From a virus, in the IMG/VR virus record IMGVR_UViG_3300042542_000328, positions 1-25,973 of that record: 25,973 nt of DNA; one strand, written 5' to 3'. A program made the translations under genes and the position numbers. This document shows, one piece after another, positions 4,044 to 25,071 of this stretch. Each line of letters begins with the position of its first letter. Positions within the stretch are counted from its first letter, which is position 1. The notes beneath the pieces are model-generated. The model searched no databases. It saw nothing but the letters and a program-made list of their open reading frames with translations, and had not been told where the DNA came from.

Positions 4044-4978
4044 TGCCAAGTTATTCAGGTGTCTGGACGCTCACTGCGCAGTATCAAGCCGTTGGTGCGG
4101 GGAATTGGCCTTTGCCACCATTAGTTGGAGACATTGGGTTGATTGCTGGCGGAAGTCAAAACGCAATTAACTACATTACGATAACTGCAACAGGCAACTC
4201 TACAGATTTTGGTGATTTAATAGCCGTTACAGGTGTGTTAGCGGGGTGCGCTTCTTCCACAAGAGGGGTGTTTGGTGGTGGTGATGCTTCACCAACAACG
4301 AACGTAATTCAATATGTCACCATTGCTAGTGTCGGTAATACTACAGATTTCGGCGATTTGACGGTCGCTAAAGACTATCTTGCTGGGTGTTCAAATAGTA
4401 CGCGAGGTTTATTTGGTGGTGGCAACCTTACCACTAATATTATTTCTTACGTTACCATCGCCACTACGGGCAATGCAACATCATTTGGTGATTTGACATT
4501 AGCAAGATATTCTATTGGCGGTCTTGCTTCAAGTACACGCGGTGTGTTTTTTGGCGGGGACAACGGAGCTGGCGAACGTAATGTTATTGATTACGTAACG
4601 ATTGCTTCAACTGGCAATGCCACAGACTTTGGCGATTTACTAACAGTTGAAGAACGAGTTCAGGGTTGCGCAAGTTCAACCAGAGGGGTAATGGCGGGGG
4701 GTCAATCCCCAACAAGTAATGTAATTCAATACATAACTATCGCCTCTACGGGTAACACTACGGACTTTGGTGATTTAACTGTGGCAAGAAATTATACGCC
4801 CGGGGCTTCAAATGCAACACGTGGAGTTTTTTGTGGTGGCAATGATGGCGGTAGTGGGGTAAATGTTATGGACTACATTACTATTGCTTCAACTGGAAAC
4901 GCTACGGACTTTGGTGATTTGCTAAATACAAATTTTACTACCCCAGCCGCCTGTTCAAACGCCCACGGAGGTCTATAA
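4043..4978 (+). CDS. Six-repeat propeller-like virion protein with GVWTL N-terminus
   Basis: The first 31 residues contain GVWTLTAQYQAVGAGNWP, a short motif shared with the next gene (GVWTLAQ, then GLWP) and familiar from other phage surface proteins. Residues 32-311 are six repeats of about 47 residues with the TGNATDFGDL core. The last unit ends CSNAHGGL, the capping variant. It lacks the FnIII domain of the upstream paralogue. Its ATG overlaps the upstream stop. Its own Gly-Gly tail provides the ribosome binding site for the next gene. It is probably a virion appendage or receptor-binding subunit; the propeller fold is inferred from the repeat count and length. Confidence 0.82.
   Translation: MPSYSGVWTLTAQYQAVGAGNWPLPPLVGDIGLIAGGSQNAINYITITATGNSTDFGDLIAVTGVLAGCASSTRGVFGGGDASPTTNVIQYVTIASVGNTTDFGDLTVAKDYLAGCSNSTRGLFGGGNLTTNIISYVTIATTGNATSFGDLTLARYSIGGLASSTRGVFFGGDNGAGERNVIDYVTIASTGNATDFGDLLTVEERVQGCASSTRGVMAGGQSPTSNVIQYITIASTGNTTDFGDLTVARNYTPGASNATRGVFCGGNDGGSGVNVMDYITIASTGNATDFGDLLNTNFTTPAACSNAHGGL
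4136..4975 (+). repeat. Six tandem coding repeats (about 47 residues each)
   Basis: This is the same repeat family as in the genes on both sides. Spacer length between the GGG strand and NVI varies by several residues, as loops between propeller strands would. Confidence 0.85.
4967..4972 (+). promoter_or_regulatory. Shine-Dalgarno GGAGGT inside the C-terminal Gly-Gly codons
   Basis: GGAGGT encodes Gly-Gly of the AHGGL tail and lies exactly 8 bases before the ATG at 4981. Confidence 0.75.
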
Positions 4979-4980
4979 AA

Positions 4981-6900: not shown

Positions 6901-6920
6901 TGTAACTCCCAGTTACAACC

Positions 6921-6925
6921 AAGGA
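6921..6925 (+). promoter_or_regulatory. AAGGA Shine-Dalgarno before a TTG start
   Basis: AAGGA lies 6 bases before a TTG at 6932. It is the only good ribosome binding site near the start of this gene, and it decides for TTG over the GTG at 6890, which has no such site. Confidence 0.5.
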
Positions 6926-6931
6926 CAAAAA

Positions 6932-7750
6932 TTGAACGACCTAATCATCAGCAACATCAACACGGCTTTAACCACTGTAAAGCCTGAGTACAACGTCATG
7001 TTGAGCAACATTGACGCTAAGATGCCAGCGGTGGTGCGTGACACCAGCAACTTCCACAAGAGCCATTCGCAGTTCATGCAAGTGACCTTGGACGTTACTG
7101 CCATCACCCCAATTCGTAGCATCAAACACACACTTGCTGAAATTGATCGTACACGCGCCGCCCTTCAAGAAGCCTACATCAACATGCGTAAGAAGCAGGT
7201 TGAGATGAAAAGGAAACAGGCTCAACTAGATGCCTGCACTGACGCGCTTGATCGTGAGTTGTTTGAGATTGAGATTCTTGAACTAGGTTCACACCTTGAT
7301 GGCACACAGAACGCAGTCAATGGCGCTATCCGCAAGATGAACTTCATGGTCAACCAACACGCCCAGTTGCTAGAAGCTGTTGGCAAGAACGAGATCACCG
7401 AAGAAGACTACGAGAAGGAAGAGTCTCGCTATCACATCATGACCTGTATGAAGCAAGCCCTGAATGCGGCACGTTCACGCAACGGCATGATTGACGAAGG
7501 CAACCTGATCTATTTGTTTGACTTGGGTATCAACGCCGCTCAAGCGCAAGCTGAAGTGTTTGCCTACTTGAACATGGAGAACCAGCTTATCTCCAACGGC
7601 AACGCCCCTACGCACGAGATGACCATGCGCTGGCTTGAGGCTTGTGCTGACAAGTGGGAGAAAGACCCAGAGACCTTTGCCGCACGTCGTGGCTTCTCTG
7701 TGTTTGATCCTACGTCCCTGACCAACACACCGCAGTTGGAAAACAAATAA
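6932..7750 (+). CDS. Coiled-coil phage protein of unknown function
   Basis: From the TTG at 6932 the protein has 272 residues; a GTG at 6890 would add 14 residues and overlap the upstream gene by 11 bases. Base content is mostly charged and helical. The segment from IRSIKHTLAEIDRTRAAL through MRKKQVEMKRKQAQLDA (roughly 7111-7240) is a strong coiled-coil candidate, followed by acidic helices. There is no signal peptide, membrane span or enzymatic motif that I can see. Its stop overlaps the ATG of the glycosyltransferase (TAATG), so the two are probably coupled in translation and may act together. It might be a chaperone, a virion-assembly factor or a partner of the transferase. I do not recognise the family. 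Confidence 0.8.
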   Translation: MNDLIISNINTALTTVKPEYNVMLSNIDAKMPAVVRDTSNFHKSHSQFMQVTLDVTAITPIRSIKHTLAEIDRTRAALQEAYINMRKKQVEMKRKQAQLDACTDALDRELFEIEILELGSHLDGTQNAVNGAIRKMNFMVNQHAQLLEAVGKNEITEEDYEKEESRYHIMTCMKQALNAARSRNGMIDEGNLIYLFDLGINAAQAQAEVFAYLNMENQLISNGNAPTHEMTMRWLEACADKWEKDPETFAARRGFSVFDPTSLTNTPQLENK

Positions 7751-8460
7751 TGCACCTAGTCGTCGGCACACCATGTTATGGGGGGATGATGTGTACTGAG
7801 TACACGGAGTCCCTGCTGGCGCTTAAGGAAGCCTGCTTGGTGAACAACATCAAGTTAACCTGCGTCTTCCTTGGGAACGAGAGTCTGGTGCAACGCGGTA
7901 GAAACACCATCGCGCACCACTTCATGCGGATGCAAGATGCAACTCACCTGATCTTTATTGACGCTGACCAGAAGTTTGTGGCAAACGACATTGCCCGAAT
8001 GATTAAGGCTGACAAAGGTATTGTGGGCGGCCCAGTCCCCATGAAGGGGATCAACTGGGACAAGGTACGTCAGGGTGCTGTTCTGAATCATCCTAACTTG
8101 TCCGTCCTTACGGGCATTTTTAATTTAAACAAGCTGGACGGTCACGAGATGATTAGTCCAGACTTGCCGTTTCAGGTAAAACATATTGGCACAGGATTTA
8201 TGTTGATCCGCCGCGATGTTTTTGAGAAACTACAGCCTCATGTGGGCTGGTATGACAACGGGGGTGTGACCATCCCCAAGGGTGAGAAGGTGTACGACTA
8301 CTTCAAGGTACAGAACTACGACCACGAACTTCTGTCTGAGGACTACAACTTCTGCCACTTGTACCGTGAGCATGGTGGAACCGTCTGGGCCGCGCCTTGG
8401 TGCGAACTCGGACATTTTGGCGCATATCTTTTTAGCGGGCAATACGCCCAAGGAGCATAA
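7750..8460 (+). CDS. GT-A-type glycosyltransferase-like protein
   Basis: The protein has 236 residues. It opens with a hydrophobic strand and VGTPCYGG, typical of phage GT-A-like proteins. HLIFIDADQKF gives a DxD motif at residues 71-73, the expected metal and nucleotide-sugar site. Later motifs include VGGPVPMKG, GTGFMLIRRDVFEKL and LSEDYNFCHLYREHGG, the usual acceptor-side and acidic motifs of family-2-like transferases. It is cytosolic, with no membrane span. It lies directly downstream of the fibre genes and the coiled-coil gene, so the likely substrates are virion proteins or a host surface glycan. Sugar donor and acceptor cannot be told from sequence. Confidence 0.85.
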   Translation: MHLVVGTPCYGGMMCTEYTESLLALKEACLVNNIKLTCVFLGNESLVQRGRNTIAHHFMRMQDATHLIFIDADQKFVANDIARMIKADKGIVGGPVPMKGINWDKVRQGAVLNHPNLSVLTGIFNLNKLDGHEMISPDLPFQVKHIGTGFMLIRRDVFEKLQPHVGWYDNGGVTIPKGEKVYDYFKVQNYDHELLSEDYNFCHLYREHGGTVWAAPWCELGHFGAYLFSGQYAQGA

Positions 8461-9098: not shown

Positions 9099-9716
9099 AT
9101 GAGTGATGAAAAACTAAACGCCAATTCAACGCTTGATAAAGTGTTGGGCTACGTAGATAGTCCATTTAAGCTATTTGCAATCCTTGTCATGGGGGTTATG
9201 GCTTTTGTTGGGTATATGTTTTGGCAAAACCAATCGTTCCTAATCTCTGCGTACCAAGAGCAAAAGCGGATGCCAAGCATCAACGAGGAAAGAGCAGACG
9301 ATGCGGCTTCTGTACTGTTTAAACAAACAGACGCTAAGTTTGTGGCTATTTTCAAAGTCAACCCAATATTGGGCACTCGGATTCTGTACAGGCTGTATAC
9401 AAAAGATGGGCGCAGTAAGGAGTTAGAAGGCTTGGACGTTGGTCTGTTTACCGCCAACCACGCAAACAACAATGATGTTGTAAAACTAATGGCGGGGGAT
9501 GTTCCTTGCAGTCAGTACCTACGCCCACAAAGTGAATTGGGCATTTGGTACATAGCGCAAGGAGTTGGTTATACCTGCCGAATATCTGTGCCCCCAGATC
9601 GTAGTCGGTTCATAGGGCAGATTACGGCAGGATGGTCTAGTCAACCTGACAACTTAGAACACATCATTTCAATGATGGAGATTTCAGCAACCATGCTAAC
9701 TAAACGAGGTAACTAA
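9099..9716 (+). CDS. Membrane-anchored phage protein of unknown function (205 aa)
   Basis: A hydrophobic segment at about residues 23-42 (FKLFAILVMGVMAFVGYMFW) follows a short charged N-terminus, so the protein is probably anchored in the inner membrane. The remaining 160 residues form a soluble domain with VPCSQYLRPQSELGIWYIAQ and two cysteines in the CSQ and YTCRIS motifs. It has no lipobox and no endopeptidase motif, so it is not a recognisable spanin or SAR endolysin. It overlaps the endolysin start by TAATG and lies between membrane proteins of the lysis module, which suggests a role in lysis or in superinfection control. This is inference from context. Confidence 0.78.
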   Translation: MSDEKLNANSTLDKVLGYVDSPFKLFAILVMGVMAFVGYMFWQNQSFLISAYQEQKRMPSINEERADDAASVLFKQTDAKFVAIFKVNPILGTRILYRLYTKDGRSKELEGLDVGLFTANHANNNDVVKLMAGDVPCSQYLRPQSELGIWYIAQGVGYTCRISVPPDRSRFIGQITAGWSSQPDNLEHIISMMEISATMLTKRGN

Positions 9717-10231
9717 TGGCTCAGTTTGAACCAGCTTTTGAGCAAATGATTAGGGACGAGGGTGGCTACGTCCTCCATGAAGTCGCTGGCGACACTGGCG
9801 GGATGACCTACGCAGGCATCGCTCGTAACAAAAACCCACAGTGGAATGGCTGGGCGCTTGTGGACAAAAAAGAGTTTGGCGGGTCTCTTACGCCCATGGT
9901 GCGCGAGTTTTACCGCGTTGAATTCTGGGACAAGATGCGTGGCAACGAGATCGCCAACCAAGAGGTAGCCAACAGCATCTTTAACTTTGGGGTAAATGCT
10001 GGCATGGGCATGGCTGTAAAGCTTGCCCAATTGGTTGTTGGGGCTACGCCTGACGGCGGAATAGGCGCCAAAACCATCGAAAAGCTCAACCAAATCACGG
10101 ACGGCCAGCGGTTCAAAGAGTCCTATGCTTTGGCAAAAATTGCCCGTTACGTTGAGATATGCAACAAGAACCCCGTGCAGGTTAAGTTCCTCAAGGGTTG
10201 GATTAACCGCACACTGAAAGGTCTAGCATGA
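9716..10231 (+). CDS. Endolysin, GH108-type N-acetylmuramidase
   Basis: The protein has 171 residues. Its start has DEGGY at residues 14-18, with Glu15 as the expected catalytic acid of glycosyl hydrolase family 108, followed by DTGGMTYAGIA, the family's second signature. The C-terminal half, with NSIFNFGVNAGMG and TPDGGIGAKTIEKLN, matches the PG_binding_3 domain normally fused to it. No signal peptide is present, so it depends on a holin to reach peptidoglycan. It is coupled upstream by TAATG and downstream by ATGA to the 3TM holin. The function is muralytic release of progeny from the host. Confidence 0.93.
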   Translation: MAQFEPAFEQMIRDEGGYVLHEVAGDTGGMTYAGIARNKNPQWNGWALVDKKEFGGSLTPMVREFYRVEFWDKMRGNEIANQEVANSIFNFGVNAGMGMAVKLAQLVVGATPDGGIGAKTIEKLNQITDGQRFKESYALAKIARYVEICNKNPVQVKFLKGWINRTLKGLA

Positions 10232-10665
10232 GCTTGCTTGCCGTTGGATCAATCATAGAAGCCGTGGGTAAGGTTGCAGGCGACCTGATCACCACTGACA
10301 AAGAGAAGATGGAGATGGAGATTGAGCAACGTAAGCTTGATCTTGAAGAGAAGCGCATCGACCAAGCAACCGATCTAGCCCAGATTGAGGTCAACAAGAT
10401 CGAAGCGGCGTCCTCTAGCGTGTTTGTCAGCGGCTGGCGTCCTGCCATCGGCTGGATCGGTGTAGCGGCTATGGCGTACCAGTTCTTGGCTTATCCGCTG
10501 TTTCAATGGGCTTGGAAGTACTTGCAGGCTATGGGCTGGGTTCCAGTAGGCATGGATCCCCCTCCAGTGCTTGAGGCTGACCAGCTTTGGGTCATCCTGT
10601 CAGGCATCTTGGGAATCGCTGGTATGCGATCTTTTGAGAAGACTAAGGGTGTGGCAAGCAAGTAA
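10228..10665 (+). CDS. GTA-type holin with three membrane segments
   Basis: The 145-residue protein has an N-terminal amphipathic segment, a charged coiled coil (about 25-60), and then SGWRPAIGWIGVAAMAYQFL, the diagnostic start of the 3TM holin family found in gene-transfer agents and phages. A further hydrophobic span lies near 118-135 (LWVILSGILGIAGM). The charged coil precedes membrane segments, as usual in the family. It is translated by ATGA overlap with the endolysin. It should form the lesions that let the endolysin through. No dual start is evident. Confidence 0.88.
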   Translation: MSLLAVGSIIEAVGKVAGDLITTDKEKMEMEIEQRKLDLEEKRIDQATDLAQIEVNKIEAASSSVFVSGWRPAIGWIGVAAMAYQFLAYPLFQWAWKYLQAMGWVPVGMDPPPVLEADQLWVILSGILGIAGMRSFEKTKGVASK

Positions 10666-11367: not shown

Positions 11368-12645
11368 ATGAGCTACAACTCACCATTCACAGGCAACGTC
11401 ATTCAACCGACTGACGTTTCTTTTCGTGCCGTTACGCTGAGCGCTAACACCCAGTTGGAGTGGCCCATCAACGGGAATGCCACAGACGACTTTGCCGCTC
11501 GCATCATGCAGGTCACAGCTACAACTGCTGGTCTTAGCCTGTATATGCCACCTGCTAACCAAAGCTCTGTAGGTAATGACGCGCTGATCCGAAACGTCGG
11601 AGCTAACACCTTCACGGTTAAAGACTACGCCGGCGCTAATACGATCATCTCTGTTGCCGCCGGCGAATCCAAGTACGTCTACATCACAGCCAACCCTACA
11701 GTCACAGGCACATGGGGCAACATCGCTTTTGGCACGGGAACATCCTCTGCTGATGCCGCTACCTTGGCTGGCTATGGTTTGGTTGCCAGCGGCTCAACGC
11801 TGAACCAGAGCCACCCTGCTTTGACATTGGTTAACGCTGGGACTTTTGGCGTAACCAATAGAGCACAAACTTCGGTGTGGGACGGTGGAGCTGGTACTTA
11901 CACGCTACCTTCAGCCACTACGCTTGGAAACAACTGGTTTACCTTGTTTAAGAACAGCGGAACTGGCTCAATGGTGATCTCCGCCGCTGACAACATTGAC
12001 GGACAGTCTACAAAGACGTTTGCGCCTAACGAGTCTGCTTTCATTGTCAGCACTGGTACAACCTACTTGACCGTTGGCTATGGTGTTAGTAACCAGTTTT
12101 TTTACACGTCTTTGGTTAAGGCGGTAGTTACAGGGTCGTACACTTTAACTTCAAGTGAAGCTACAAACACCATTCAGACCTACACAGGAACATTAACTGG
12201 TAACGTCACAGTGGTTTACCCACCAGTGGTGAACTTGTACGTGATCAAGAACTCCACAACGGCTGGTGGTTTTACATTGACTGTTGGAACTGGATCTGGC
12301 ACGTCGGTGGTCATTCCTTCTGGTCAACAGGTTACTTTGGCTTGCGACGGTACTAACTTCTTTAACGCCAACACTACTCAAGCTGGCGCAGTGACCACAT
12401 TGAGTTTGGCTGATGGCACCGTAGGCTCACCGTCCTTAAACTTTGGTAACGAGACAAACACGGGTGTTTATCGTGCAAGCGCTGGTCAATTTAACACTGC
12501 TATTTTGGGCGTTTTGAGATCTACGTTGTCGGCAACAGGATTGACGATTGCTGGGTCTGTAGCAGGAACAACTGGAGTGTTTTCTGGAGCTGTTTCTGGA
12601 ACAACTGGAACATTTACCAGTGGCGTTTCTGGAGGCACGTTCTAA
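11368..12645 (+). CDS. Tail fibre-like protein between adaptor and nozzle
   Basis: The protein has 425 residues, rich in Thr, Ser, Gly and Ala. SLNFGNETNTGVYR near residue 355 and the later GLTIAGSVAGTTGVFSGAVS are hallmarks of phage fibres, with repeated -GTTG-F-SG units at the end. The C-terminus GVSGGTF matches the small fibre gene at 1834-2127. AAGGA precedes the ATG, and the stop overlaps the nozzle start (TAATG). It probably forms a trimeric fibre attached at the adaptor or nozzle. No peptidase or chaperone domain is seen at the C-terminus. Confidence 0.85.
   Translation: MSYNSPFTGNVIQPTDVSFRAVTLSANTQLEWPINGNATDDFAARIMQVTATTAGLSLYMPPANQSSVGNDALIRNVGANTFTVKDYAGANTIISVAAGESKYVYITANPTVTGTWGNIAFGTGTSSADAATLAGYGLVASGSTLNQSHPALTLVNAGTFGVTNRAQTSVWDGGAGTYTLPSATTLGNNWFTLFKNSGTGSMVISAADNIDGQSTKTFAPNESAFIVSTGTTYLTVGYGVSNQFFYTSLVKAVVTGSYTLTSSEATNTIQTYTGTLTGNVTVVYPPVVNLYVIKNSTTAGGFTLTVGTGSGTSVVIPSGQQVTLACDGTNFFNANTTQAGAVTTLSLADGTVGSPSLNFGNETNTGVYRASAGQFNTAILGVLRSTLSATGLTIAGSVAGTTGVFSGAVSGTTGTFTSGVSGGTF
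12631..12636 (+). promoter_or_regulatory. Shine-Dalgarno GGAGGC inside the C-terminal Gly-Gly codons
   Basis: GGAGGC encodes Gly-Gly of the SGGTF tail and lies exactly 8 bases before the ATG at 12645, the same geometry as at 2113, 4029 and 4967. Confidence 0.75.
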
Positions 12646-14885
12646 TGACCAAAAAGGTCTTTGCGCTGGACACGAAGCCGGGCATCCAGCGCGATGGAAC
12701 GGTCTTTGACAAAGAGTTTTACAACGACGGACGTTGGGTAAGGTTCCAGCGCGGACGCCCTCGTAAGGTTGGTGGCTACACGCAGATCACCGCAGGGATT
12801 TCAGGCCCATCCCGTGGCATTTACGTTAACCCACAGCAGAGCTTTAACAACGTCTTTAATGGGCACTCTAAGGGTTTGCAGGTTGTTCCTATTGACAACA
12901 ACGGTGTAGGAGCAGGCATCACGGATCTGACGCTGTCTAACTTTACGGCATCGGACAACAATCTGTGGCAATTTGATACGTTCTATGACGTGAGTGGATC
13001 TGGAGATAATTTGCTGTTGGCGCACCCCGGTCAATCCCTCAGCCTTATTGACAACAACGTCAACACCCCTGTTTTGGGTGGCAACATCACTGGCACAAGT
13101 TTGTCAGCTATTGGCGTGTTCTCTGAGTCTGTGTACTTGAACAGCACCACGACCATGTATCTGTCAACCCAAAGCCTTCAGGTTGGTGCAGGTCAATCCA
13201 TCTCTGGGACTGGTATTCCTTCTGGTACTACGGTTGTTTCTACCAATCTTGCTGTACCTGTTTTAAACGCTGTAGCCGTGACTGGAACTGCTGGTCAGTG
13301 CTCTTGTACATCAACAACAGGTCTCTACATTGGTCAAACAGTAGCTGTTTCTGGGACTTTAACAGGTACAGCCACAGGTATTACCTCTGGCGTGACGTAC
13401 TTCATCATTGCCACCAACTACGCTACAACTTTTACTTTGTCCGCCTCCTCTGGTGGCGCGGCAATTGTCACCACCGCTGGCACAACAACTGGCTTGGTGT
13501 TTACGCTCAGTCAGATCCAAAACGTGGTGATCTCAGCCGCGGCAACAGCTTCTGGCGCCTCTACAATCACCTTTGACAACAATGTTTCCGTCTCTGGTGG
13601 TGTTGTTTCCCTTCACCCTTACGTGTTTGTTTATGGGAATAACGGGCTAATTAGAAACTGTTCGGCAGGCAACATAAATGATTGGGTCTCTGCGGACGCC
13701 AATGAGGTCTCTGTAGCAACTGGAAAGATTGTCCAAGGGCTACCCGTCCGAGGCGGCTCAAACGCGCCTTCTGGGCTGTTTTGGAGCCTTGACAGCCTTA
13801 TCCGCGTGTCTTACATCGGTGGTGCTGGTACACCCCCACAGTTTTGGCGCTATGACTTAATCTCTTCCCAATCGTCGATCTTGTCTTCTCAGTCAGTGAT
13901 TGAGTACGACGGTATCTATTATTGGTGCGGTGTTGACAGGTTCTTGCTTTACAACGGTGTTGTGAAAGAGATTACTAACACCATGAACCAGAACTACTTT
14001 TTTGATAACCTGAACTACGCCCAGCGCGAGAAGGTTTGGGTGTCAAAGGTTCCTCGTTTTGGTGAGATTTGGTGGTTCTACCCTCGTGGGAATGCTACTG
14101 AATGCACAGATGCTATCATCTACAACATTCGCGAAAACACTTGGTACGACGCTGGTGAGGCTCTTGGCGCTCGTCGTTCTGCTGGTTACTTCTCTCAGGT
14201 CTTTACTCGCCCAACTTGGGCTTCATGGGAGACTAACGAAGTAGGTGGCGTGAACGCACTCACGTTAACTGCTGGTGGAACTTTGTACACCAACGGAACC
14301 TATACCAACCAAGCTTTAACAGGCGGAAGCGGTACAGGCGCCACGGCTACGATTGTGGTGGCTGGTGGTATCGTTACCTCCGTGACGATCTACAGCAAGG
14401 GCAAGAACTACGTTGTTGGCGACGCTCTTTCAGCCTCGCTCCCAGTAGGTTCTGGGCTGATTATCACGGTCAATCAGGTGGTTGACTTTGTGTCCTTGTG
14501 GCAACATGAGATTGGGACTAACGCGGTACAGAACACGACCGTGTTGGCAATTGAGTCGTTCTTTGAGACCAATGACTTAGGCTTTGTCTCAGGTGGCCCC
14601 TCCCAGCCTAGCCCTGTGGGTGAGAACAAATGGTTACGCTTAGAGCGTGTTGAGCCTGACTTTGTGCAAAGTGAAGACATGGAGCTGTACGTGACTGGAC
14701 GATCATTTGCCCAGTCCGAAGATACAACGTCTTCTGCATACACCTTTGGCCCAAACACGGGCAAGGTTGACATGCGTGAACAACGACGTGAGCTTCGTTT
14801 AAAGTTTGTCTCTAACGTGGCAGGTGGTAACTACCAAGTTGGTAAGATCATCTTAGACGCTGATTTAGGCGACGTGAGACCGTAA
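12645..14885 (+). CDS. Tail nozzle-like protein (TTB / P22 gp10-type) with inserted domains
   Basis: The 746-residue protein opens with DTKPGIQRDGTVFD and GRWVRFQRGRPRKVGGY, typical of the nozzle or stabilisation proteins of short-tailed phages. Core motifs return at about residues 325-520: VFVYGNNGLIRN, GLFWSLDSLIRVSY, IIYNIRENTWYD, ARRSAGYF. Two insertions stand out. Residues about 171-292 (Thr/Ser/Gly-rich, ending GTTTGLVFTLSQ) and about 536-611 (LTAGGTLYTNGTYTN, GSGTGATATIVVAGG, GKNYVVGDAL) resemble mobile fibre-type domains. They likely decorate the nozzle surface. The length exceeds the usual range for such proteins because of these inserts. Position after the adaptor supports the call. 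Confidence 0.82.
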   Translation: MTKKVFALDTKPGIQRDGTVFDKEFYNDGRWVRFQRGRPRKVGGYTQITAGISGPSRGIYVNPQQSFNNVFNGHSKGLQVVPIDNNGVGAGITDLTLSNFTASDNNLWQFDTFYDVSGSGDNLLLAHPGQSLSLIDNNVNTPVLGGNITGTSLSAIGVFSESVYLNSTTTMYLSTQSLQVGAGQSISGTGIPSGTTVVSTNLAVPVLNAVAVTGTAGQCSCTSTTGLYIGQTVAVSGTLTGTATGITSGVTYFIIATNYATTFTLSASSGGAAIVTTAGTTTGLVFTLSQIQNVVISAAATASGASTITFDNNVSVSGGVVSLHPYVFVYGNNGLIRNCSAGNINDWVSADANEVSVATGKIVQGLPVRGGSNAPSGLFWSLDSLIRVSYIGGAGTPPQFWRYDLISSQSSILSSQSVIEYDGIYYWCGVDRFLLYNGVVKEITNTMNQNYFFDNLNYAQREKVWVSKVPRFGEIWWFYPRGNATECTDAIIYNIRENTWYDAGEALGARRSAGYFSQVFTRPTWASWETNEVGGVNALTLTAGGTLYTNGTYTNQALTGGSGTGATATIVVAGGIVTSVTIYSKGKNYVVGDALSASLPVGSGLIITVNQVVDFVSLWQHEIGTNAVQNTTVLAIESFFETNDLGFVSGGPSQPSPVGENKWLRLERVEPDFVQSEDMELYVTGRSFAQSEDTTSSAYTFGPNTGKVDMREQRRELRLKFVSNVAGGNYQVGKIILDADLGDVRP

Positions 14886-15146: not shown

Positions 15147-18100
15147 ATGGCAATTGATTATTTTGCGCAACAATTTGGAAGAGATGAGGATACAGCTCCA
15201 AGGGTAATGAGCGATGAAGAGCTGTTTCAGCAAACTGGTAGTTGGGAAGCGGCGGCGGCATTGCGGGACGAGCAAAACAATGCATTAAACCAGTACAACT
15301 GGTCACAACCAGCGGCGGGTGGGCTTAACCTAGCAAATGAAGCTGGCGCGGCTGTCACCGTTGCCGCTCCTACTACTGTTGCAAGCGCTCCTAGTTATGA
15401 AAGTGTGTATGACGTTTTTGGGGGCAAAGACGCCACTAACGACCTAATCACGCAATTTAGATCTATGGGATTAGATGACAATGCGATTGCGTCTGTCTTT
15501 GCCCCATACCAACCAGCCACTAAAGTAGCAACAGATGGGGCATTAACACAAGTTGCGAACAATACAGCCACAAATACGGCGGCTACAAATAACACAGCCA
15601 ACACAGGCGCACTAGCAACAGCCGCTAATACAACAACCGCCAATACGGCAACAGACACATCAGCCTCAACAGGCGCCCTTACTCAAGCCGTTACTGGATC
15701 AACAACTGGCGCCGCTGTATCTGATGCTGATGCAGATCGATTGGTTCGTGAGGCTTATGCAAGCATTGGTCGTACAGGCATTGGATCTAACGCTAATGAA
15801 ATCGATCCAGATGGATTTAACAATTGGGTTGCCGCAGTAAAGAATGGAACTGTTAAAGCGTCGGATCTTCAAACCACATTTAAGGGCGCTGTTGCAGACT
15901 ATATTGCTCAGAATCCTGATGACAAATACACCAAGTACGTAACTGATTACCAAGCTAAACAAGCTGGCACAACTAAAGCCTCTGACACAACCACAAAAGC
16001 CGCAGATACAACCGTAACAAACGGGTACTTAAAAGCTAACCCAGACGTTGCCGCCGCTTATTTGGCAAACAACGGTGGCATGACACAAGATCAGTATGCT
16101 CAATCTCACTTTACAAACAGTGGTGCTGATGAAGGGCGCAAGTCTCCGTTCCAAGAAAGCGATTCGCTTAAAAACGCAATTGATTTAAAAAATGGTTTGT
16201 TTTTAACGTCAGATGGAAGAGCTTTTTATGCGGATGGCAGAGAAGAAACAAACTGGAATGCATTAGACAAATCCGTTGTCGGAAATGCAAACTTAGTCAA
16301 ATTAACCAAACAGATTCTTGACCAAGGAACTACAGCACATTGGTCTGGTCAGGGTTGGGGTTCTCCAGAAGCAAATGCCGCATCTATAGCGTCTGCTCTT
16401 CTTAAAGTTGGAATTGACAACATTTATGATCTTGGCAAAGTTCCTGTTTACGCAGACGTACAAGAAATTGGCAAGACATACAACGGACAACAAGTTATTA
16501 CCACAACTGATGAAGAAGGTAAAACTGTTAGCTATATTCGCCAACCAACAGGAGAATATCAATACGATTGGGAAACTGGACAAAATTACCCCTTAACAAA
16601 GTTTGTGCCAGTTCCTGCTGACGCAAAACTTGAGTCTATTTATGGTCAATACACTGATTACGGTGGTGAATATGGCGGTTCTTACACGGCAATTGACCCG
16701 TCAAAGCTTAAAACAGTAGATGGTAAGTTAGTAGTAGACACAGGGCAAACAACATTTGGTAACACAAAAACTGGCGAAGCAATTGCACGTAATTTTGCCG
16801 CCCAACAAGGCGACGACATTCTGAGTGGAACAACCGCTGGAAGTGGTAATACTGCATTCCGCGTAGACTTTTCACAGGGCGCACCTGTTTTTTACACGAC
16901 ATACGCTTCTTCCAACACGTTGGTAAACATGTTTGCCGACAACCCATTGCTTGGCAAGATTGCTACTGCCGCGGCGGCGTACTTTGGAGGCCCCGCAGGC
17001 GTAGCCGCACTACAAGGCGCCATGGGTAAGAGCATTGAAGACATTGCCAAGGGCGCCTTGCTTACATACATTGGTGGACAGATTGCTGGGAACATATCTG
17101 GTTCAACAGACCTTATAAATTCTGTTGGTGCTGATGCCGCAAACGTGATTGGAAAGAGCGTAGGAAAATTTGTATCTAGCGAAGGCAAGGCTGACATCAT
17201 CACATCATTGGCTGGCGGTGCTGTTGACGTAGGTGTGGGGCAAATTACAGATAACATTGCTGGCTTTAAAGATTTATCGCAAGGGCAACAAGATTTCACA
17301 AGAAGTGTAATTTCAACCACCATCAAAAACGGTGGTGACTTATCTTTGGGTGACTTGGTTGATGCCGCCTTTACTGCTGGAACAGCCGCAACCAAAGCTT
17401 CTGCGACAGGAAGTGTTGCTACAGCCATTGAAGCCAACAAAACAATCAATGACGCTGTAAATGCTGAGATTGATAAGCAATTAACATTTGACGCCTCTAA
17501 ATCAACAGACATCAATGCGGCATCACAAGCGGCTGATGCGGCTGGTTACAACAAGTTCACGTTTGATGGCAAGACCTACACGCTTGACAACAACAACGCC
17601 GCTAACACAATTACCCAGTTAGAAGCTGACGCGCTCAAGACAAACACAGCCGCCAACCTTAAGGGCGGTGAATTTGAGGGTGTAGATGCGCAAGTAGCCG
17701 CTAACGCCGCCAAGAACAACACGGTTATTGGTAACACGGAAGCTGACACGTTGGAAGAAGCCGCGGCTCTGGCTAAGTCTCGTAACCCAACAGGCACGAC
17801 GTTTACCTATGGCGGCAGTACATACACCATGGGTGGCTCTTCAGCGGCTGTAGACAGGGCGTTAAACGAAGCTAAAACAGAAGAGCTGAAGAACAACATT
17901 GCTAATGCCCCAACAAGAGCCGAGGCATTCAAGTTGGCTCGTGAGGGTGGTCTTGGCGCTAAAGATGTATTCACATGGCAAGGCAAGAGCTATAGCGCAG
18001 GAACGGCTGAAGAGCGCCCTGATCTTGTTGATGCTATTAGTGCAAAAAACCTCTCAACAGTAACAGATGCATCTAAGACTGTTGCCGCTCAAAGCGATAC

Positions 18101-20783
18101 AGCCGCACGAGCTACTGCCGCAGAAGATCTTACCAAACTACAAAACGCCGCCACAAAGAAAATTGAATCAACAGGTTTCTTTAGCAACCTTGCCAACACT
18201 ATTCAAAATCAAATGAAGTTGAGCAGTGAGGCGGCAAACGACTACTTGAAGAACAACCCTGATAGCCCAATCACAAATAGTGTGAGCACGGCATACGAAG
18301 CCGCAGGTAACTTGGAAAAGAATGTTGCAGGTGGCTTAGCTTTATTGACAAACAACAAGCCCCTTGCAGATGCTTTTGTAAAGAGTGGCGATAACCTGAC
18401 TAAGGTTGGTCAAAGTATTGGCAATGGTGTTGTGGATACTAAGAACTGGAATGACACCATGTCATTGGTTCAGGGAGCGCAAGGATGGGAAAAGCTTGGT
18501 GTTATTGCTGGCCGCATCATGGATGGCACAAGCGGTTTGGGTCGCCAAGTAGAGGTTGAGTTGCGCCAGGAGTTGCCTGGTCTTTTTCTCGGAGGAGGTA
18601 GCGTCAGAGGTATCTTGGTCGCAACTGGAGCGATGGACACCGCTGAGACCGCTGGTAATGCCGCCTTGGATACCTATGATGAGTCTATCAAAAAGGGCAA
18701 AACCCACGCTGACGCTCTAACAGATGCTAGAAAAGCAGGCGCCGCCGCTGGTATGGCAGAAGCCGCCGTTCAGTTGACATTAGGCAAGGTTGCAGATGTC
18801 GTTGTTGGCAAGATTGGCAACATAGGCGCTAAGGCTGGAACTAAGATTGTTGGCGAGGGCGTTGTTGAAGGCGGTCAAGAAGGCGGATCATCTCTTGCTG
18901 TCAATGCTATTTTGGGTCAAGAATTGGATGCCAATAAAGCGCTGACTCAAACTGTTCTTGGTGGAGTTGTTGGTAAGGGTACTGCTGTTGCAACGTCTCC
19001 AACCGATATTGCCACGACAACAACCATTAACAACAACATTTCAGCCGCCGTCACTTCTGGTAACGCGGCAAGCGTAAACACAGCAATTACAAACTCTGTT
19101 CAGACTTCTTTGTCTAGTGGCTCAAGCGTTGAGATTGCAGTTGGAACATCTGTTAACTCAGCCATCACCAATGGTGCTGATGCTAGTGCATCTATCACAA
19201 GTGCCGTATCTTCTGCTGTTGAGAGTGGTGCTAATGTAAACCAAACAGTTACGGCATCTATTGACTCAGCAATTACCGCTGGTGCAAATACAACGACGGC
19301 CATCAATTCAACTGTTACCTCTGCAATCACAAGCGGTGCAAACCTGTCTCAGACTGTTTCTGGCTCTATCACGGCCGCCACAAGTGCTGGCGTGAGTGTC
19401 AATACAGCGGTCACCAATACAGTTAATTCTGCCGTTACTGCTAGTATTTCAAAGGGTGCTGATGTTGCAACATCCGTCAACTCAGCCGTGACAAGCGCGA
19501 TCACATCTGCCGCTACTAGCAATGCAAACACAACGACAGCGGTTAGCTCTTCTGTTAGCTCTGCCATTACTGCCGCGGCATCAAGCAATGCCAATGTCAC
19601 AACTGCTGTTGATTCAGCCGTGACATCTGCCATCACAACTGCTATTTCAAGCAATGTCAACGCTAACACCGCTATTACAACTGCCGTGGACTCTGCTGTA
19701 ACGACTGCATTGAATAGCAATGTAAATGCTACAACGGCAATTACAACCTCTGTGACCGCGGCTATCAATGCCTCTGTAAATGCAAACGTAAATGCTAATG
19801 CCAATGCTAATGCAAATGTAAACGCCAATGCCAACATCAATTCAACGGTAAATGCGGCCGTAGCCGCTGCCGTGAATGCTGGCGTCGACACTAATACTGC
19901 TGTCAATGCAGCAGTAAATGCTGCGGTCAATGCAAACATCAATACAAACATCAATATCAACATTGACAATCTTAAAAAGTCAGCAACTGATGCGGCAACA
20001 TCAGCCACAGAAAACTCTGGCTTAATTAGCTCAATCAATGACTTGCTTTCTGGTTCGCCAACCGCTACACCAACAACAACGCCTAAAACGCCTACTAAAA
20101 CAACCGCTAAAAAAGCGGCGGGTTTAACATCAGGTTTGATAGCTGGAGCCGCTATGGCTGGTGATTTAGACCGCCTTCCACCCCAGATGCTCAAGGCGTA
20201 CATGACTCAGGATAAGTTCGTGGATCCGCTTGCCAAACTACAGGCTTTGCAAGAAGGCATGAATACTGAGAAAATGCCATCATTACCTCAAGTTAATACA
20301 CAGGAACCAGATATGCCAGATCAAGGCACATGGAAATACGGCACAGCCCCTGATGACCTAGACTCGTTGTTTGGCGAAAAAGCCGAAGAGGGAGAAGAAA
20401 CCGCTTTCAAAGCTGGTGGCTACGTCGCCCCCCTTCAGATGGCTTCTGGTGGTATGCCCCTACCCCTACTGGTCAAGTCTGGTGGCGCTCTAGGAGCTCT
20501 ACCCCGAGGTGACGGTCGATTGGACTTCCGCCATGGCGCTCATGTTGCTGGTGAGGGTGATGGTCAGTCCGATGACATCAAAGCCATGTTGGCTGATGGT
20601 GAGTTTGTGTTCCCTGCGGATGTAGTTTCTGCTTTAGGAAATGGCTCAACCAAGGCAGGTTCAGATAAACTATACGAAATGATGCACTCAATTCGCGCTA
20701 GAGCACGGTCTAAGAAGCCAAAAGACTTACCGCCACCCGCGTTGAAATCACCACTTGACTACCTAAAGAAGGTAAGGAGCTAA
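15147..20783 (+). CDS. Giant repeat-rich virion protein, probable ejection protein (1878 aa)
   Basis: Order of regions: Asn/Thr/Ala low complexity (about 132-185); a DUF4214-like helix pair with FNNWVAAVKNGTVKASDL (near 225-255); a YLKANPDVAAAY-to-HF-G-DEGR motif (about 292-335) known in repeat proteins; a hydrophobic Gly/Ala segment, possibly membrane-active (about 590-650); three copies of a short FT--GK-YT module (about 789-953); a second Gly/Ala-rich segment (about 1140-1290); a 320-residue Ala/Thr/Ser/Val/Asn repeat (about 1291-1611); and a C-terminus with GDGQSDDIKAMLADGEFVFP, a motif I recall from large phage virion proteins. Size, hydrophobic segments and place after the nozzle suggest a protein ejected into the host; a tape-measure role is the alternative. 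No enzyme motif was found. Confidence 0.85.
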   Translation: MAIDYFAQQFGRDEDTAPRVMSDEELFQQTGSWEAAAALRDEQNNALNQYNWSQPAAGGLNLANEAGAAVTVAAPTTVASAPSYESVYDVFGGKDATNDLITQFRSMGLDDNAIASVFAPYQPATKVATDGALTQVANNTATNTAATNNTANTGALATAANTTTANTATDTSASTGALTQAVTGSTTGAAVSDADADRLVREAYASIGRTGIGSNANEIDPDGFNNWVAAVKNGTVKASDLQTTFKGAVADYIAQNPDDKYTKYVTDYQAKQAGTTKASDTTTKAADTTVTNGYLKANPDVAAAYLANNGGMTQDQYAQSHFTNSGADEGRKSPFQESDSLKNAIDLKNGLFLTSDGRAFYADGREETNWNALDKSVVGNANLVKLTKQILDQGTTAHWSGQGWGSPEANAASIASALLKVGIDNIYDLGKVPVYADVQEIGKTYNGQQVITTTDEEGKTVSYIRQPTGEYQYDWETGQNYPLTKFVPVPADAKLESIYGQYTDYGGEYGGSYTAIDPSKLKTVDGKLVVDTGQTTFGNTKTGEAIARNFAAQQGDDILSGTTAGSGNTAFRVDFSQGAPVFYTTYASSNTLVNMFADNPLLGKIATAAAAYFGGPAGVAALQGAMGKSIEDIAKGALLTYIGGQIAGNISGSTDLINSVGADAANVIGKSVGKFVSSEGKADIITSLAGGAVDVGVGQITDNIAGFKDLSQGQQDFTRSVISTTIKNGGDLSLGDLVDAAFTAGTAATKASATGSVATAIEANKTINDAVNAEIDKQLTFDASKSTDINAASQAADAAGYNKFTFDGKTYTLDNNNAANTITQLEADALKTNTAANLKGGEFEGVDAQVAANAAKNNTVIGNTEADTLEEAAALAKSRNPTGTTFTYGGSTYTMGGSSAAVDRALNEAKTEELKNNIANAPTRAEAFKLAREGGLGAKDVFTWQGKSYSAGTAEERPDLVDAISAKNLSTVTDASKTVAAQSDTAARATAAEDLTKLQNAATKKIESTGFFSNLANTIQNQMKLSSEAANDYLKNNPDSPITNSVSTAYEAAGNLEKNVAGGLALLTNNKPLADAFVKSGDNLTKVGQSIGNGVVDTKNWNDTMSLVQGAQGWEKLGVIAGRIMDGTSGLGRQVEVELRQELPGLFLGGGSVRGILVATGAMDTAETAGNAALDTYDESIKKGKTHADALTDARKAGAAAGMAEAAVQLTLGKVADVVVGKIGNIGAKAGTKIVGEGVVEGGQEGGSSLAVNAILGQELDANKALTQTVLGGVVGKGTAVATSPTDIATTTTINNNISAAVTSGNAASVNTAITNSVQTSLSSGSSVEIAVGTSVNSAITNGADASASITSAVSSAVESGANVNQTVTASIDSAITAGANTTTAINSTVTSAITSGANLSQTVSGSITAATSAGVSVNTAVTNTVNSAVTASISKGADVATSVNSAVTSAITSAATSNANTTTAVSSSVSSAITAAASSNANVTTAVDSAVTSAITTAISSNVNANTAITTAVDSAVTTALNSNVNATTAITTSVTAAINASVNANVNANANANANVNANANINSTVNAAVAAAVNAGVDTNTAVNAAVNAAVNANINTNININIDNLKKSATDAATSATENSGLISSINDLLSGSPTATPTTTPKTPTKTTAKKAAGLTSGLIAGAAMAGDLDRLPPQMLKAYMTQDKFVDPLAKLQALQEGMNTEKMPSLPQVNTQEPDMPDQGTWKYGTAPDDLDSLFGEKAEEGEETAFKAGGYVAPLQMASGGMPLPLLVKSGGALGALPRGDGRLDFRHGAHVAGEGDGQSDDIKAMLADGEFVFPADVVSALGNGSTKAGSDKLYEMMHSIRARARSKKPKDLPPPALKSPLDYLKKVRS
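17511..18004 (+). repeat. Three copies of a short FT-x-GK-x-Y module in the giant protein
   Basis: The copies lie at residues about 789-814, 870-897 and 924-953. Each has an Ala-rich helix (AASQAADA, AAALAKSR, EAFKLARE) followed by a two-strand turn: FTFDGKTYTL, FTYGGSTYTM, FTWQGKSYSA. I recall FTW-GK-Y modules in other large phage proteins. Confidence 0.7.
19018..19980 (+). repeat. Low-complexity Ala/Thr/Ser/Val/Asn repeat region
   Basis: About fifteen imperfect units of 17-22 residues follow the pattern T-AV-SAVTSAI, then SGAN or SNAN. The Val/Ile at every fourth position fits short helices broken by Gly/Asn turns. Unit lengths vary, so this is not a strict tandem array. Confidence 0.8.
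19776..19835 (+). repeat. In-frame hexanucleotide run encoding alternating Asn with Ala/Val
   Basis: Ten consecutive units of the form GYN-AAY (GCN/GTN alternating with AAT/AAC) encode residues 1544-1563. The 6-base period keeps the frame if copies are gained or lost. Confidence 0.8.
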
Positions 20784-20786
20784 AAA

Positions 20787-21749
20787 ATGGGACTATTCCA
20801 AGGTGAAGCACCACCAAATGTACAGACGACCAGAGAGACGGCGGCTGTTGCTCCTCAATACCTAACGGACTACCTGACGCAACTTGCAACGCAAGGTCAG
20901 CAGACTTTGGGCGTCAAAGATCCTGTTACTGGTGTTTACACGCCACCTACACAAGCACAGCTTACAACCGCTGGAACGCCCTATGTTGCGCCCTTAACCA
21001 CGCTACAAAAGAGTGCGGCTACCAATGCTCCTACCGACCTGTATCGCTACCAAGATCCAATGGATTTAGCATACTCAACAGGCCAGGAAGCTACAGGCAT
21101 CAGCCCAACTGACATCTCTAAGTTCTACAACCCCTATGAGAATGCGGTTGTGGGTGGCATGGCCGCACAAAGCGCTTCCAATGTCCAACGTAACCTTTTG
21201 CCTCAGCTTAAGGGTGGCTTTGTAGGTACAGGCGGTTTAGGTGGCACTCGATATGCCAATGCTCTTGGCCAGACTATGGGTGATGTGAACACAACTCTTC
21301 TACAAGAGCAGAACAAGGCTCGTTCGGCTGGTTATCAGTCAGCCCTAGATGCCGCCTTGCGTGAGATGAGCGGTCAGACACAAGCAGGTCAAATGCTAGG
21401 CTCTTTAGGCGCTCAGGAACAGCAAGCCGCAACGACTGGTCTTAAGACTCAGGCGGACATCGGTGCTATTGAGCAGGCTCAGAACCAAGCCATCATCAAC
21501 GCGCCAACCACAATGGCAAGCAACGTGGCTCAGATCCTACGTGGTTATACGTACCCAACAGTTACCACTGAGAAGTATGACGGCCCTGCCTCGTCTTACG
21601 GCCCCTCCGTGCTGTCACAGATTGGTGGCTTAGGTTCATTGGTTGCGGCTGGAACAAACAAAGACCAAACTGGTCTGCTAGATAAAGCGTTTAAGTTTAT
21701 TGGCAATCAATTCTCTAGTGACCCAGAACAATTAAGCGGCCCCACCTAA
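20787..21749 (+). CDS. Ejection/DNA-transfer-type virion protein (320 aa)
   Basis: AAGGAG lies before the ATG, three bases after the upstream stop. After a Gln/Thr-rich start comes FYNPYENAVVGGMAAQSASN, then a Gly-rich GGFVGTGGLGGTRYANALG segment and a Gln/Ala-rich helical stretch to about residue 240. This combination of an NPY motif, a Gly-rich turn and long Ala/Gln helices is common in internal virion proteins that leave with the DNA, by recollection. It is followed by a related helical protein and a transglycosylase. The exact role is inferred from context. Confidence 0.78.
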   Translation: MGLFQGEAPPNVQTTRETAAVAPQYLTDYLTQLATQGQQTLGVKDPVTGVYTPPTQAQLTTAGTPYVAPLTTLQKSAATNAPTDLYRYQDPMDLAYSTGQEATGISPTDISKFYNPYENAVVGGMAAQSASNVQRNLLPQLKGGFVGTGGLGGTRYANALGQTMGDVNTTLLQEQNKARSAGYQSALDAALREMSGQTQAGQMLGSLGAQEQQAATTGLKTQADIGAIEQAQNQAIINAPTTMASNVAQILRGYTYPTVTTEKYDGPASSYGPSVLSQIGGLGSLVAAGTNKDQTGLLDKAFKFIGNQFSSDPEQLSGPT

Positions 21750-23499: not shown

Positions 23500-25071
23500 A
23501 TGGCTGATCTCAAACTTAATTTTCCAAAAAAGCTTGACCAAGAACAGCTAAAGCAAGCCGAGAAGGTTGCCCAAAGAGCCATAGCCATTGGCGTCGATCC
23601 AGCGCTTGCAGTTGCCACTGCCTACCAAGAAAGTAGACTTCGCCCTAACACGCCTGACAGTGAAAAAGGCGCAATTGGTTTGATGCAGGTTTTAATTCCA
23701 ACTGGTAAGGCTTACGGTTATTCTGAAGCTGACTTGCGTGACCCTGAGAAGAACCTTGATGCTGGCCTTAAAAACCTCAAGGAAGCTTTAGCGTACACAA
23801 ACAACAACCCCAAACTGGCGGCCGTGTACTACCATAGCGGCCCTGATGCAATTGCAGATCTTGCCGCTGACAAGCCGATGGGGCCTAAAACCAAACAGTA
23901 TGTTCAAGACTTAAAAAGTTTTGGTACGTTTGAACTGTTTAACCCTAATACCCAAGCCCCCGCTGAGTCACAAGAAGAACCAGCGGAAGCTCCTGAAGCT
24001 CCCATCGCTAGTTTGGCTGATGCAAAAGAGCTGACTACCGCTGAAGACTTTATTCGTGAGAACTCAGCCGCTGACCTCAGACGCCAGGAATATGGTGCGA
24101 TGGGTGGATTAGGGGGAGCTGCTGTTGCCGCCTCTCCTTATGTTGGCAGAACTGCCGCAACTACTGTTGGTAAGTTGGCAAAGGCTTTCAATGAGGCTAA
24201 AGCACCAACCGCTCCTACAGCTCCTATGGGCGGTTTACCAGCTAGTGGCGCACCTACCCCCCCACAAGTGGCTCCTGGCTCTTCTAAGGGCGCTCCTACA
24301 GGCGGTTTATCAATACCCATGGGACCTGCCGATGGAGGTCGAATGGCTAAAGGTCAAACAGGGGTTATCCCTTACAACACAAGTAAAGCACTTGGCTTGA
24401 CAGACATCGAAGCCGCACAGGCTCTGAGCAACACCAAACAAGAGGGTGGTGCTTGGGATTTGGCAGAAAAGCGCCGTGAGGCAATGACTCGCCTTCAAGG
24501 CATGGGTGCTGGTAACTTTGTTGAGAATCCACGGTTTGGTGGGATCATGACCCAAGGCCAAGGTGTTGGTAAAGGTCCCCGCGAGTCCTATGTGATGCGA
24601 GCTCCCGAAGCTGGCCAACCCGCTCAGCTTGCACCAATTCCTAAAGCGCCAATCATTCCCACAACTCCACCCCCGCTCTCGGGCTTAGATCAGGTGAAGA
24701 ACATGTTTACTGGAATGATGCGACAGAGTCTGAGGTTTATGCCAGTGGTTGGGCCTCCTTTGGCTGGTCTCAGCATCGGACGTGACTTGGCTGACATCCA
24801 AACTCAGTATGAACGCGCACCTATGGAGCGTGACTACACCGACATCGGCTTGAGTACTGCAGGAGCATTGGCAACAGGTGCTTCTCTGTATCCGCCTGCA
24901 TTCCCTGTTGCAGCTCCTTTGAGCATTGGCATCCCAACATTCCGCAACATCCGTAGAAATGTTTTGGCCCAGGAATCAGATCCTGAGTTACAACGTAGAT
25001 TGAAGATGCCGCCAACAGAAGAAGAATTAGCTACGGCAAGCCGACCATTTATCGGGTATCCTAGACCTTGA
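23500..25071 (+). CDS. Virion-associated lytic transglycosylase (SLT domain)
   Basis: The protein has 523 residues. The first 120 form a soluble lytic transglycosylase domain: VDPALAVATAYQESRL with Glu44 as the expected catalytic acid, then GAIGLMQVLIPTGKAYG and AVYYHSGPDA. These are family 1 (goose-lysozyme-like) signatures. After a Pro/Ala-rich linker comes a region with GGAWDLAEKRREAM, and the C-terminus has a hydrophobic GALATGASLYPPAFPVAAPL segment that may insert in a membrane. It is the last gene before the terminator. Such enzymes in the virion open peptidoglycan during DNA entry. It is separate from the endolysin at 9716. Confidence 0.9.
   Translation: MADLKLNFPKKLDQEQLKQAEKVAQRAIAIGVDPALAVATAYQESRLRPNTPDSEKGAIGLMQVLIPTGKAYGYSEADLRDPEKNLDAGLKNLKEALAYTNNNPKLAAVYYHSGPDAIADLAADKPMGPKTKQYVQDLKSFGTFELFNPNTQAPAESQEEPAEAPEAPIASLADAKELTTAEDFIRENSAADLRRQEYGAMGGLGGAAVAASPYVGRTAATTVGKLAKAFNEAKAPTAPTAPMGGLPASGAPTPPQVAPGSSKGAPTGGLSIPMGPADGGRMAKGQTGVIPYNTSKALGLTDIEAAQALSNTKQEGGAWDLAEKRREAMTRLQGMGAGNFVENPRFGGIMTQGQGVGKGPRESYVMRAPEAGQPAQLAPIPKAPIIPTTPPPLSGLDQVKNMFTGMMRQSLRFMPVVGPPLAGLSIGRDLADIQTQYERAPMERDYTDIGLSTAGALATGASLYPPAFPVAAPLSIGIPTFRNIRRNVLAQESDPELQRRLKMPPTEEELATASRPFIGYPRP

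Follow-up and report, generated by a model that had tools for sequence, protein, structure and literature searches.

A length-variable Ala/Thr/Ser/Val/Asn repeat, predicted to be helical, and other low-complexity classes in one slot of a phage virion-type protein family

Repeat-bearing internal phage proteins are already known. The tape measure of phage TP901-1 is reported to have 29 repeats of 11 or 18 residues, largely helical, and alanines could stand in for one of them with little effect (PMC5099701). A set of 11-residue units in tape measures, described by Belcaid et al. in 2011, provides a precedent for variation in unit number, as far as the accessible text of that paper goes (PMC3271669), and the portion of a review of podovirus ejection proteins that was available describes mosaic domain swapping among them (PMC8954989). 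Here we analyse the IMG/VR virus record IMGVR_UViG_3300042542_000328, a stretch of 25,973 bases taken as the whole record and called the window below, and within it a repeat of Ala, Thr, Ser, Val and Asn carried by P0001, a virion-type protein of 1878 residues. New here, as far as the open-access literature searched shows, are a repeat, predicted to be helical, that matched no curated family, and the differing repeat classes that occupy the same slot in related proteins.

Weighing the computed repeat, its units and the selection on them together with the predicted fold, we lean slightly towards a reading in which the repeat would be an alpha-solenoid-like, exchangeable, length-variable and weakly charged spacer in an internal virion protein of the ejection or tape-measure-like kind. 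Relatives fill the same slot with proline-rich, glycine-rich and collagen-like repeats, which is why we regard the putative spacer as exchangeable.

Composition, periodicity and selection of the repeat

The following features of the protein are needed for what follows.

15147..20783, + strand: virion-type protein P0001, 1878 residues, carrier of the repeat (open reading frame and translation)
19017..19979, + strand: A/T/S/V/N repeat, in frame, residues 1291-1611 (translation, composition, parity)
18999..20051, + strand: whole predicted helical array, residues 1285-1635, 16 helices, the last ones weaker (AlphaFold2 model)
19116..19385, + strand: five 18-residue units, residues 1324-1413, each a 4-residue loop plus a 14-residue helix (AlphaFold2 model, alignment)
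19386..19715, + strand: five 22-residue units, residues 1414-1523, each a 4-residue loop plus an 18-residue helix (AlphaFold2 model, alignment)
19776..19860, + strand: Asn-rich NANVNANA tract, about residues 1544-1571 (alignment, AlphaFold2 model)

Seven residues (A, T, S, V, N, I and G) make up 94% of residues 1291-1611 compared to 58% of the remaining protein, and their share reaches at most 67% in any 321-residue window outside the repeat. Charged residues number 12 where about 63 are expected, and mean hydropathy is +0.33 in the repeat and -0.30 in the rest of the protein. When the repeat was compared with itself and with 300 shuffles, the top identity lags were 22 (z 10.5), 36, 18, 4, 26 and 44, and all 20 of the strongest lags were even. 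Of 68 Val, Ile and Leu residues, 67 share one parity (the maximum among 20,000 shuffles was 72%), and 46 of the 67 distances from one to the next equal 4; at period 2.0 the hydrophobic power reaches 81.8, with a shuffle maximum of 9.4. Parity power in 100-residue windows is 25-27 wholly within the repeat and no higher than 4.1 clear of it. At the DNA level there are only short imperfect arrays (a 66-bp unit present twice, 76%). Over 19 rows of relatives the parity count is 1135 right and 18 wrong; these segments were picked for parity, and therefore only the 67 of 68 in the window serves as a parity test. The rule is not general, as the repeat of a distant relative, L023, has no parity preference. 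A spectral peak at 3.65 residues was rejected as evidence of helix, being the mirror of a 4.45 peak when hydrophobic residues share one parity. On the minus strand an open reading frame of 284 residues (19349-20203) mirrors the repeat, which we attribute to codon composition; we do not regard this frame as a gene.

Close relatives were compared in an alignment of 11 rows, with pairwise gap counts drawn from 10 rows (45 non-independent pairs). Repeat length ranges from 229 to 367 residues in this alignment. The five 18-residue units are gap-free and are the best conserved part, the five 22-residue units are lost or gained in multiples of 22 residues in several relatives, and the Asn-rich tract varies in length, mostly by even steps. 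Of 165 pairwise gaps inside the repeat 163 are even, versus 33 of 191 outside it; inside, a length of 4 is commonest (61 cases), and lengths of 22, 44, 88 or 132 account for 40. The ratio of nonsynonymous to synonymous substitution rates (dN/dS) between the window and five close relatives is 0.064-0.135 in the repeat versus 0.04-0.10 in the flanks, at a synonymous divergence (dS) of 0.70-1.50 in the repeat, with some pairs near saturation. In the window's segment, 69 wrong-parity Ala or Thr codons lie one C-to-T transition away from a hydrophobic codon, and none of the wrong-parity sites considered there carries Val, Ile or Leu; among 106 identical residue pairs between the 22-residue units, 65 use different codons. 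The parity of 67 of 68, the nearly all-even insertions and deletions and the dN/dS of 0.06-0.14 lead us to conclude that the repeat is selected at the protein level, and the low dN/dS combined with even-length variation implies that selection maintains each unit even as units are gained and lost. The shuffles, the similar open frames on other contigs and the dN/dS values argue against the repeat being a product of chance or an assembly error.

Most of what the initial annotation had described in the sequence agrees with these results. It placed the repeat at 19018-19980, and the repeat is indeed there, with the start one base off (19018 falls on the second position of codon 1291) and the in-frame extent 19017-19979. 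Its remark that the composition is unlike that of the remaining protein holds (94% vs 58%, 12 charged residues vs 63 expected), as does the period-four hydrophobic spacing, next to which the parity is stronger still. Its count of about fifteen uneven units comes close to the 16 helices of the model, while the unevenness gives way to quantised lengths, with a core of five 18-mers and five 22-mers. The comparison of length among relatives that it had proposed finds the region fixed neither in length nor in sequence. The even-parity rule, the quantisation in steps of 18, 22 and 26 and the other low-complexity classes in the slot go beyond its description.

The slot, its sequence classes and its gene neighbourhood

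A family scan yielded 110 confirmed matches, of which the best 80 were taken; the 79 members examined comprise 78 viral loci and the window. The C-terminal domain of the protein is nearly invariant across its last ~80 residues in the alignment, and its exact motif is found in 63 of the 79 members; the 16 dropped consist of 10 open-ended reading frames and 6 complete ones (L017, L025, L030, L038, L047 and L067). Upstream of the motif a low-complexity stretch occurs in 62 of the 63, the sole row without it (L072) being a 174-residue fragment. This stretch is 47-439 residues long (median 182.5), with a charged fraction of at most 0.10 in 45 of 62. Among the rows long enough for a control, a low-complexity stretch is present in 38 of 38 slots versus 9 of 38 preceding 700-residue windows, and it measures at least 100 residues in 35 slots versus 2 control windows. 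Each row took its class from whichever low-entropy stretch was longest within 700 residues upstream of the motif, with thresholds set for this analysis. The outcome was six classes, with 23 slots of helical type (outside the modelled members a label of composition), 16 with a 12-residue T-rich repeat, 12 T/G, 7 proline-rich (T/P), 2 T/E, 2 collagen-like and 1 with none. The collagen-like slots hold Gly-X-Ser runs of ~260-325 residues (L074 residues 711-1035, L078 residues 666-927) with Gly at every third place in 93-97%. In L014 and L023 a helical block is followed by a T-rich block. The largest members, L029 and L036, have at least 2990 residues and are open at the locus start, and the repeat of L029 has steps of 22 and 26. 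A contig of a Limnohabitans metagenome-assembled genome (MAG), L095, was the best of nine genome-contig matches; by eye, T/G/N repeats and what is probably a coiled coil occupy its slot, and the match hints at betaproteobacterial hosts, although binning may mislead.

Slot class has to change at least 18 times (the least possible is 5, the shuffled mean 29.7) when mapped onto the best tree, which covers 52 distinct C-terminal domains. For a comparison across classes, 14 chosen rows were each set against their best partner of another class. L046 (T-rich) matches L040 (helical type) at 74% across residues 234-716 and at 95% in the C-terminal part, L049 (T/E) and L048 (T/G) share matches of 80%, 67% and 90%, and the match between L014 and L010 extends to the edge of the slot. 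These findings raise the tentative, and distinctly less secure, suggestion that the slot is sequence-agnostic, in that a quantised helical solenoid (18, 22, 26) can be swapped for proline-rich, glycine-rich, 12-residue T-rich or collagen-like polymers and that mainly length and threadability are selected. As other polymers occupy the same slot, length and passability may matter more than fold. Comparison among the relatives suggests that the slot serves as a spacer separating a conserved C-terminal domain from the large N-terminal part; the protein would be packaged and leave with the phage DNA, a charge-poor, locally folding stack of helices would suit threading through the portal and quick refolding, and spacer length, rather than sequence, would be what counts.

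Several observations pull the other way. Class partly tracks the tree, as 18 changes are fewer than the shuffled mean; 23 of its 49 inner branches are unresolved, and when only branches with good support are counted, the changes required drop to 4 for helical type and to 5 for each of T-rich, T/G and proline-rich. Six of the 16 members without the exact motif are complete reading frames. In pairs of differing class the part that finds no match is usually bigger than the slot itself; L043 and L073 share just the C-terminal part, or little more, with their partners of other classes (L049 and L074). In TP901-1, plaques were reportedly lost, though lysogenisation was kept, when all 29 repeats were removed, and they were lost too when one repeat and five further residues were deleted; length alone may thus not suffice (PMC5099701).

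Because the unmatched stretch usually exceeds the slot, whole middle regions or the C-terminal domain itself may have moved. In its full form this is an account of domain shuffling, in which a mobile, nearly invariant C-terminal cassette was fused to different large repeat proteins, as the pairs L043/L049 and L073/L074 would suggest. We consider it unlikely, though the strongest of the alternatives, since the neighbouring genes stay in place (60 of 60 and 44 of 45 testable relatives, see below), the N-terminal part matches too in L046/L040 and in L049/L048 (80% and 67%), and the L014/L010 match reaches the slot edge.

The domain and the surrounding genes are as follows.

20280..20783, + strand: conserved C-terminal domain (DGEFVFPADVVSALGNGS...LYEMMHSIR) (alignment; weak tape-measure PHROG matches)
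12645..14885, + strand: virion structural protein, phrog_3287, upstream (PHROG match)
20787..21749, + strand: next gene, phrog_4287 'DNA ejection protein' (PHROG match)
23500..25071, + strand: SLT transglycosylase gene, internal-virion-protein type (Pfam and PHROG scans)

When the C-terminal 267 residues were compared with PHROGs, weak matches to phrog_6090 (E 1.3e-4), phrog_3547 (0.0012) and phrog_25241 (0.0017) were obtained; these did not appear among the matches in a scan of the full-length protein with an E limit of 1. Of 45 testable relatives, 44 have a homologue of the phrog_3287 gene no more than 1 kb upstream; a homologue of the phrog_4287 gene adjoins in 60 of 60, and one of the SLT gene is present in 28 of 44. 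Neighbouring genes match phrog_2941, phrog_3287 and phrog_4287, which we provisionally take to be of short-tail type. On the basis of this gene order, identity as an ejection protein is plausible. In L037 there are ~3 kb (4921 to 7900) between the structural-protein homologue and the repeat protein, unlike at the 44 other testable loci, which we read as an extra gene or insertion.

The gene neighbourhood and the selection estimates also bear on the possibility that the protein is an outward-facing adhesin or decoration, whose repeats vary against host surfaces or resistance and whose slot diversity reflects diversifying selection. The class changes in the slot are numerous, and exposed fibres often contain T/S/P/G-rich and collagen-like segments. 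Nonetheless, dN/dS of 0.06-0.14 gives no sign of diversification in the five pairs compared, the gene sits between a structural protein and ejection-type genes, and the C-terminal domain resembles tape-measure families, which are internal. We therefore judge an adhesin improbable, marginally more so than shuffling of the C-terminal domain.

Elsewhere in the window, three consecutive genes (2838-6900) carry many copies of a ~50-residue motif (GG...NVI.Y.TIA..GNA.DFGDL...SSTRG, by eye), and the first of them matches fibronectin-III at E 1.3e-4, short of the curated cut-off; their products look like fibre or propeller-type surface proteins. A lysis pair at 9716-10665 consists of a GH108 lysozyme with a peptidoglycan-binding domain and then a holin with three transmembrane segments, of gene-transfer-agent type.

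Unit anatomy and predicted fold

We modelled residues 1221-1878 of the window protein with AlphaFold2 (AF2), using these together with ten relatives as input (11 sequences). The model has 16 helices over residues 1285-1635, with a predicted local distance difference test score (pLDDT) mostly of 90-98 over model residues 71-320 (protein residues 1291-1540) and of 90 or more at 255 of 658 residues; confidence is lower in the Asn-rich tract and below 50 across most of the final 240 residues. The regular core consists of five 18-mers and then five 22-mers, after which come the Asn-rich tract and weaker helices. In all ten core units, loop position 2 is Gly or Asn, loop position 4 is Asn, Asp or Ser, and unit position 16 is Ala; the residues at the two loop positions correspond to classical C' and N-cap preferences. 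Across 16 rows, counted inside segments chosen for parity, the step between loop matches is 18, 22 or 26 in 104 of 137 cases, and the other steps are mostly sums or parts of these or cross the Asn-rich tract; units are therefore quantised in tetrads (A-V-x-x). The distant relative L023, folded as a single sequence, gave mostly 14-residue helices with 4-residue loops and a block pLDDT mostly of 71-94.

The best structural match among the top 1000 Foldseek chains was 8cws_A for both models (VIA Z 22.9, 3.5 A over 310 residues for the window; Z 19.9, 4.2 A over 291 residues for L023), and natural solenoids among the matches listed stayed below Z 9, possibly through a shared arrangement alone. By prediction, then, the repeat has the tandem short helices in a stacked array that define an alpha-solenoid, and we consider a helical fold quite probable. 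Amphipathic short helices built largely of A-V-x-x tetrads would make up the stack, each unit being a 4-residue loop and a 14- or 18-residue helix, with 26-residue steps in relatives. The suggestion in the initial annotation of short helices split by turns, as a flexible spacer or a stacked solenoid, is in keeping with both models, whose best matches are designed solenoids.

Stacked strands or a beta-solenoid, with Val, Ile and Leu facing in and Thr, Ser, Asn and Asp facing out alternately, coils of 18 or 22 residues and Asn ladders at the turns, was our first reading of the parity; it was dropped after modelling, and hydrophobic moments did not decide the matter. Several observations speak for it and against helices. 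Strict parity is the pattern expected of beta alternation, as is the hydrophobic power at period 2.0; the moment at 180 degrees exceeds that at 100 degrees in 7-8 of 11 window units, and the reverse is seen in only 3-4. Val, Thr and Asn are poor helix formers, AF2 is sometimes over-confident on tandem repeats, and two members were modelled. Moreover, the T-rich block that directly follows the helical block of L023 (residues about 1813-1858, model 439-484) was modelled as consecutive strands at modest confidence, and for this reason the 12-residue T-rich slot class may be a beta repeat. What shifted us to helices is the AF2 outcome for two inputs, the loop residues, which fit helix caps, and the broken parity of L023, which has nine Val/Ile/Leu spacings of 1 (V-V pairs) and whose moments favour alpha in 7 of 9 units. 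The Ala at unit position 16 would, in addition, face outward in a beta-solenoid. Strands thus appear rather improbable for this repeat.

The near absence of charge and the raised hydropathy (+0.33 vs -0.30) would also suit amphipathic helices that line or insert into the host envelope and form a trans-envelope channel after ejection. Ejection proteins of the gp14 and gp16 types have membrane-spanning elements, according to the part of the review that was available (PMC8954989). The TP-, TG- or collagen-like slots of relatives would hardly be capable of this, however. Helices of 14 residues are also short for a membrane, and we give such a channel little credence, slightly less than stacked strands. 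Low-complexity debris from 6- or 12-base replication slippage, with no fold or function, is the least credible alternative: even-length indels and short-period classes (TG, TP, NPNV) resemble slippage products, but the dN/dS, the empty set of Val, Ile and Leu despite 69 codons one C-to-T change away, the 65 of 106 residue pairs with differing codons and the slot in 62 of 63 speak against it.

Comparison with described families and systems

The repeat matched no curated repeat family in Pfam or NCBIfam; the initial annotation had not recognised it from a described ejection protein. Pfam returned no repeat family for the whole protein at E 1 or for the repeat alone at E 10, with ankyrin, HEAT, TPR and Sel1 absent from these matches (HMMER filters drop most weak ones), and NCBIfam returned none at 0.1. 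A match to phrog_2600, whose function is unassigned, lies within the repeat (E 1.7e-4 in the window, 8.9e-9 in L040, 1.6e-4 in L016); as it has no function and falls within the repeat, it gives the protein no name. Three PDB sequences of fucose-binding lectins (E 3.6e-4 to 0.0031 over the whole sequence, 0.011 for the best single stretch) and one of a circumsporozoite construct (E 0.021) were dismissed by judgement as compositional matches. A viral structure library gave nothing at E 0.001 or better, and the repeat alone had no match among named phages in a search that is weak evidence, since the low-complexity filter was on. A repeat-profile scan of viral contigs with two short peptide patterns gave 12 loci; every one lies on a contig that the whole-protein search had already turned up, and none is in another protein type. 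No description of the repeat or of slot exchange was found among the papers listed in searches of the open-access literature, as judged from titles and the beginnings of abstracts, and no structure or proteomics of these phages came to light.

If the slot is indeed sequence-agnostic, it would amount to a natural experiment in polymer spacers within a virion, and what an ejection or tape-measure-like protein needs there would be spacer length and passage through the portal, not a given sequence or fold. The swaps seem already to have been made in nature, so the question of a length-setting tether would become testable through one segment. The repeat, if helical, would be an unusual natural counterpart to designed helical-repeat proteins, made of almost only A, T, S, V and N. 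Designed proteins of this kind (8cws, 8cwy and DHR4, 5cwb) are the best structural matches to both models; they are synthetic, show 7-15% sequence identity in the matches and serve as references of shape without kinship.

Two phage genes hold the same place in gene order and, judged by PHROG matches, share this kind of C-terminal motif, with other sequence in the region of the repeat. Caulobacter phage GB2A gp065c (L081:21780-23522), of 580 residues, lacks a helical repeat and has, by eye, a P/T/V-rich stretch there. The protein of Caudoviricetes sp. MW202545.1 (L080:22932-24851), of 639 residues, likewise lacks it and has, by eye, a Cys-rich stretch. Its record is titled Siphoviridae, which speaks against a firm assignment of the group to one tail type.

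The likeness to T7/P22-type podovirus ejection proteins consists in the position beside an ejection-type gene, the homologue of the SLT gene in 28 of 44 testable relatives and the large size. The window protein differs in having no match in Pfam or NCBIfam and, among PHROGs, only phrog_2600. In the accessible part of the ejection-protein review, a word search finds neither 'solenoid' nor 'low complexity', and 'repeat' only as bootstrap repeats (PMC8954989). Siphophage tape measures share with it the C-terminal motif, weakly, through the tape-measure PHROGs; the window proteins scanned gave no match to a tail-tube family. The tape measures of TP901-1 and of Belcaid et al. contain units of 11 or 18 residues that are gained and lost, as far as the available texts describe them (PMC5099701, PMC3271669). 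Unlike the 11-residue tape-measure units, the repeat of the window has no Trp or Phe, and its units of 18 or 22 residues (with steps of 26 in relatives) each include a 4-residue loop. The lack of an aromatic-marked 11-residue unit therefore sets it apart from that subset of tape measures only, as not all have such units in the part of the TP901-1 report that was available (PMC5099701). Finally, the slot of this family holds other repeat classes in relatives, a further difference from these siphophage tape measures.

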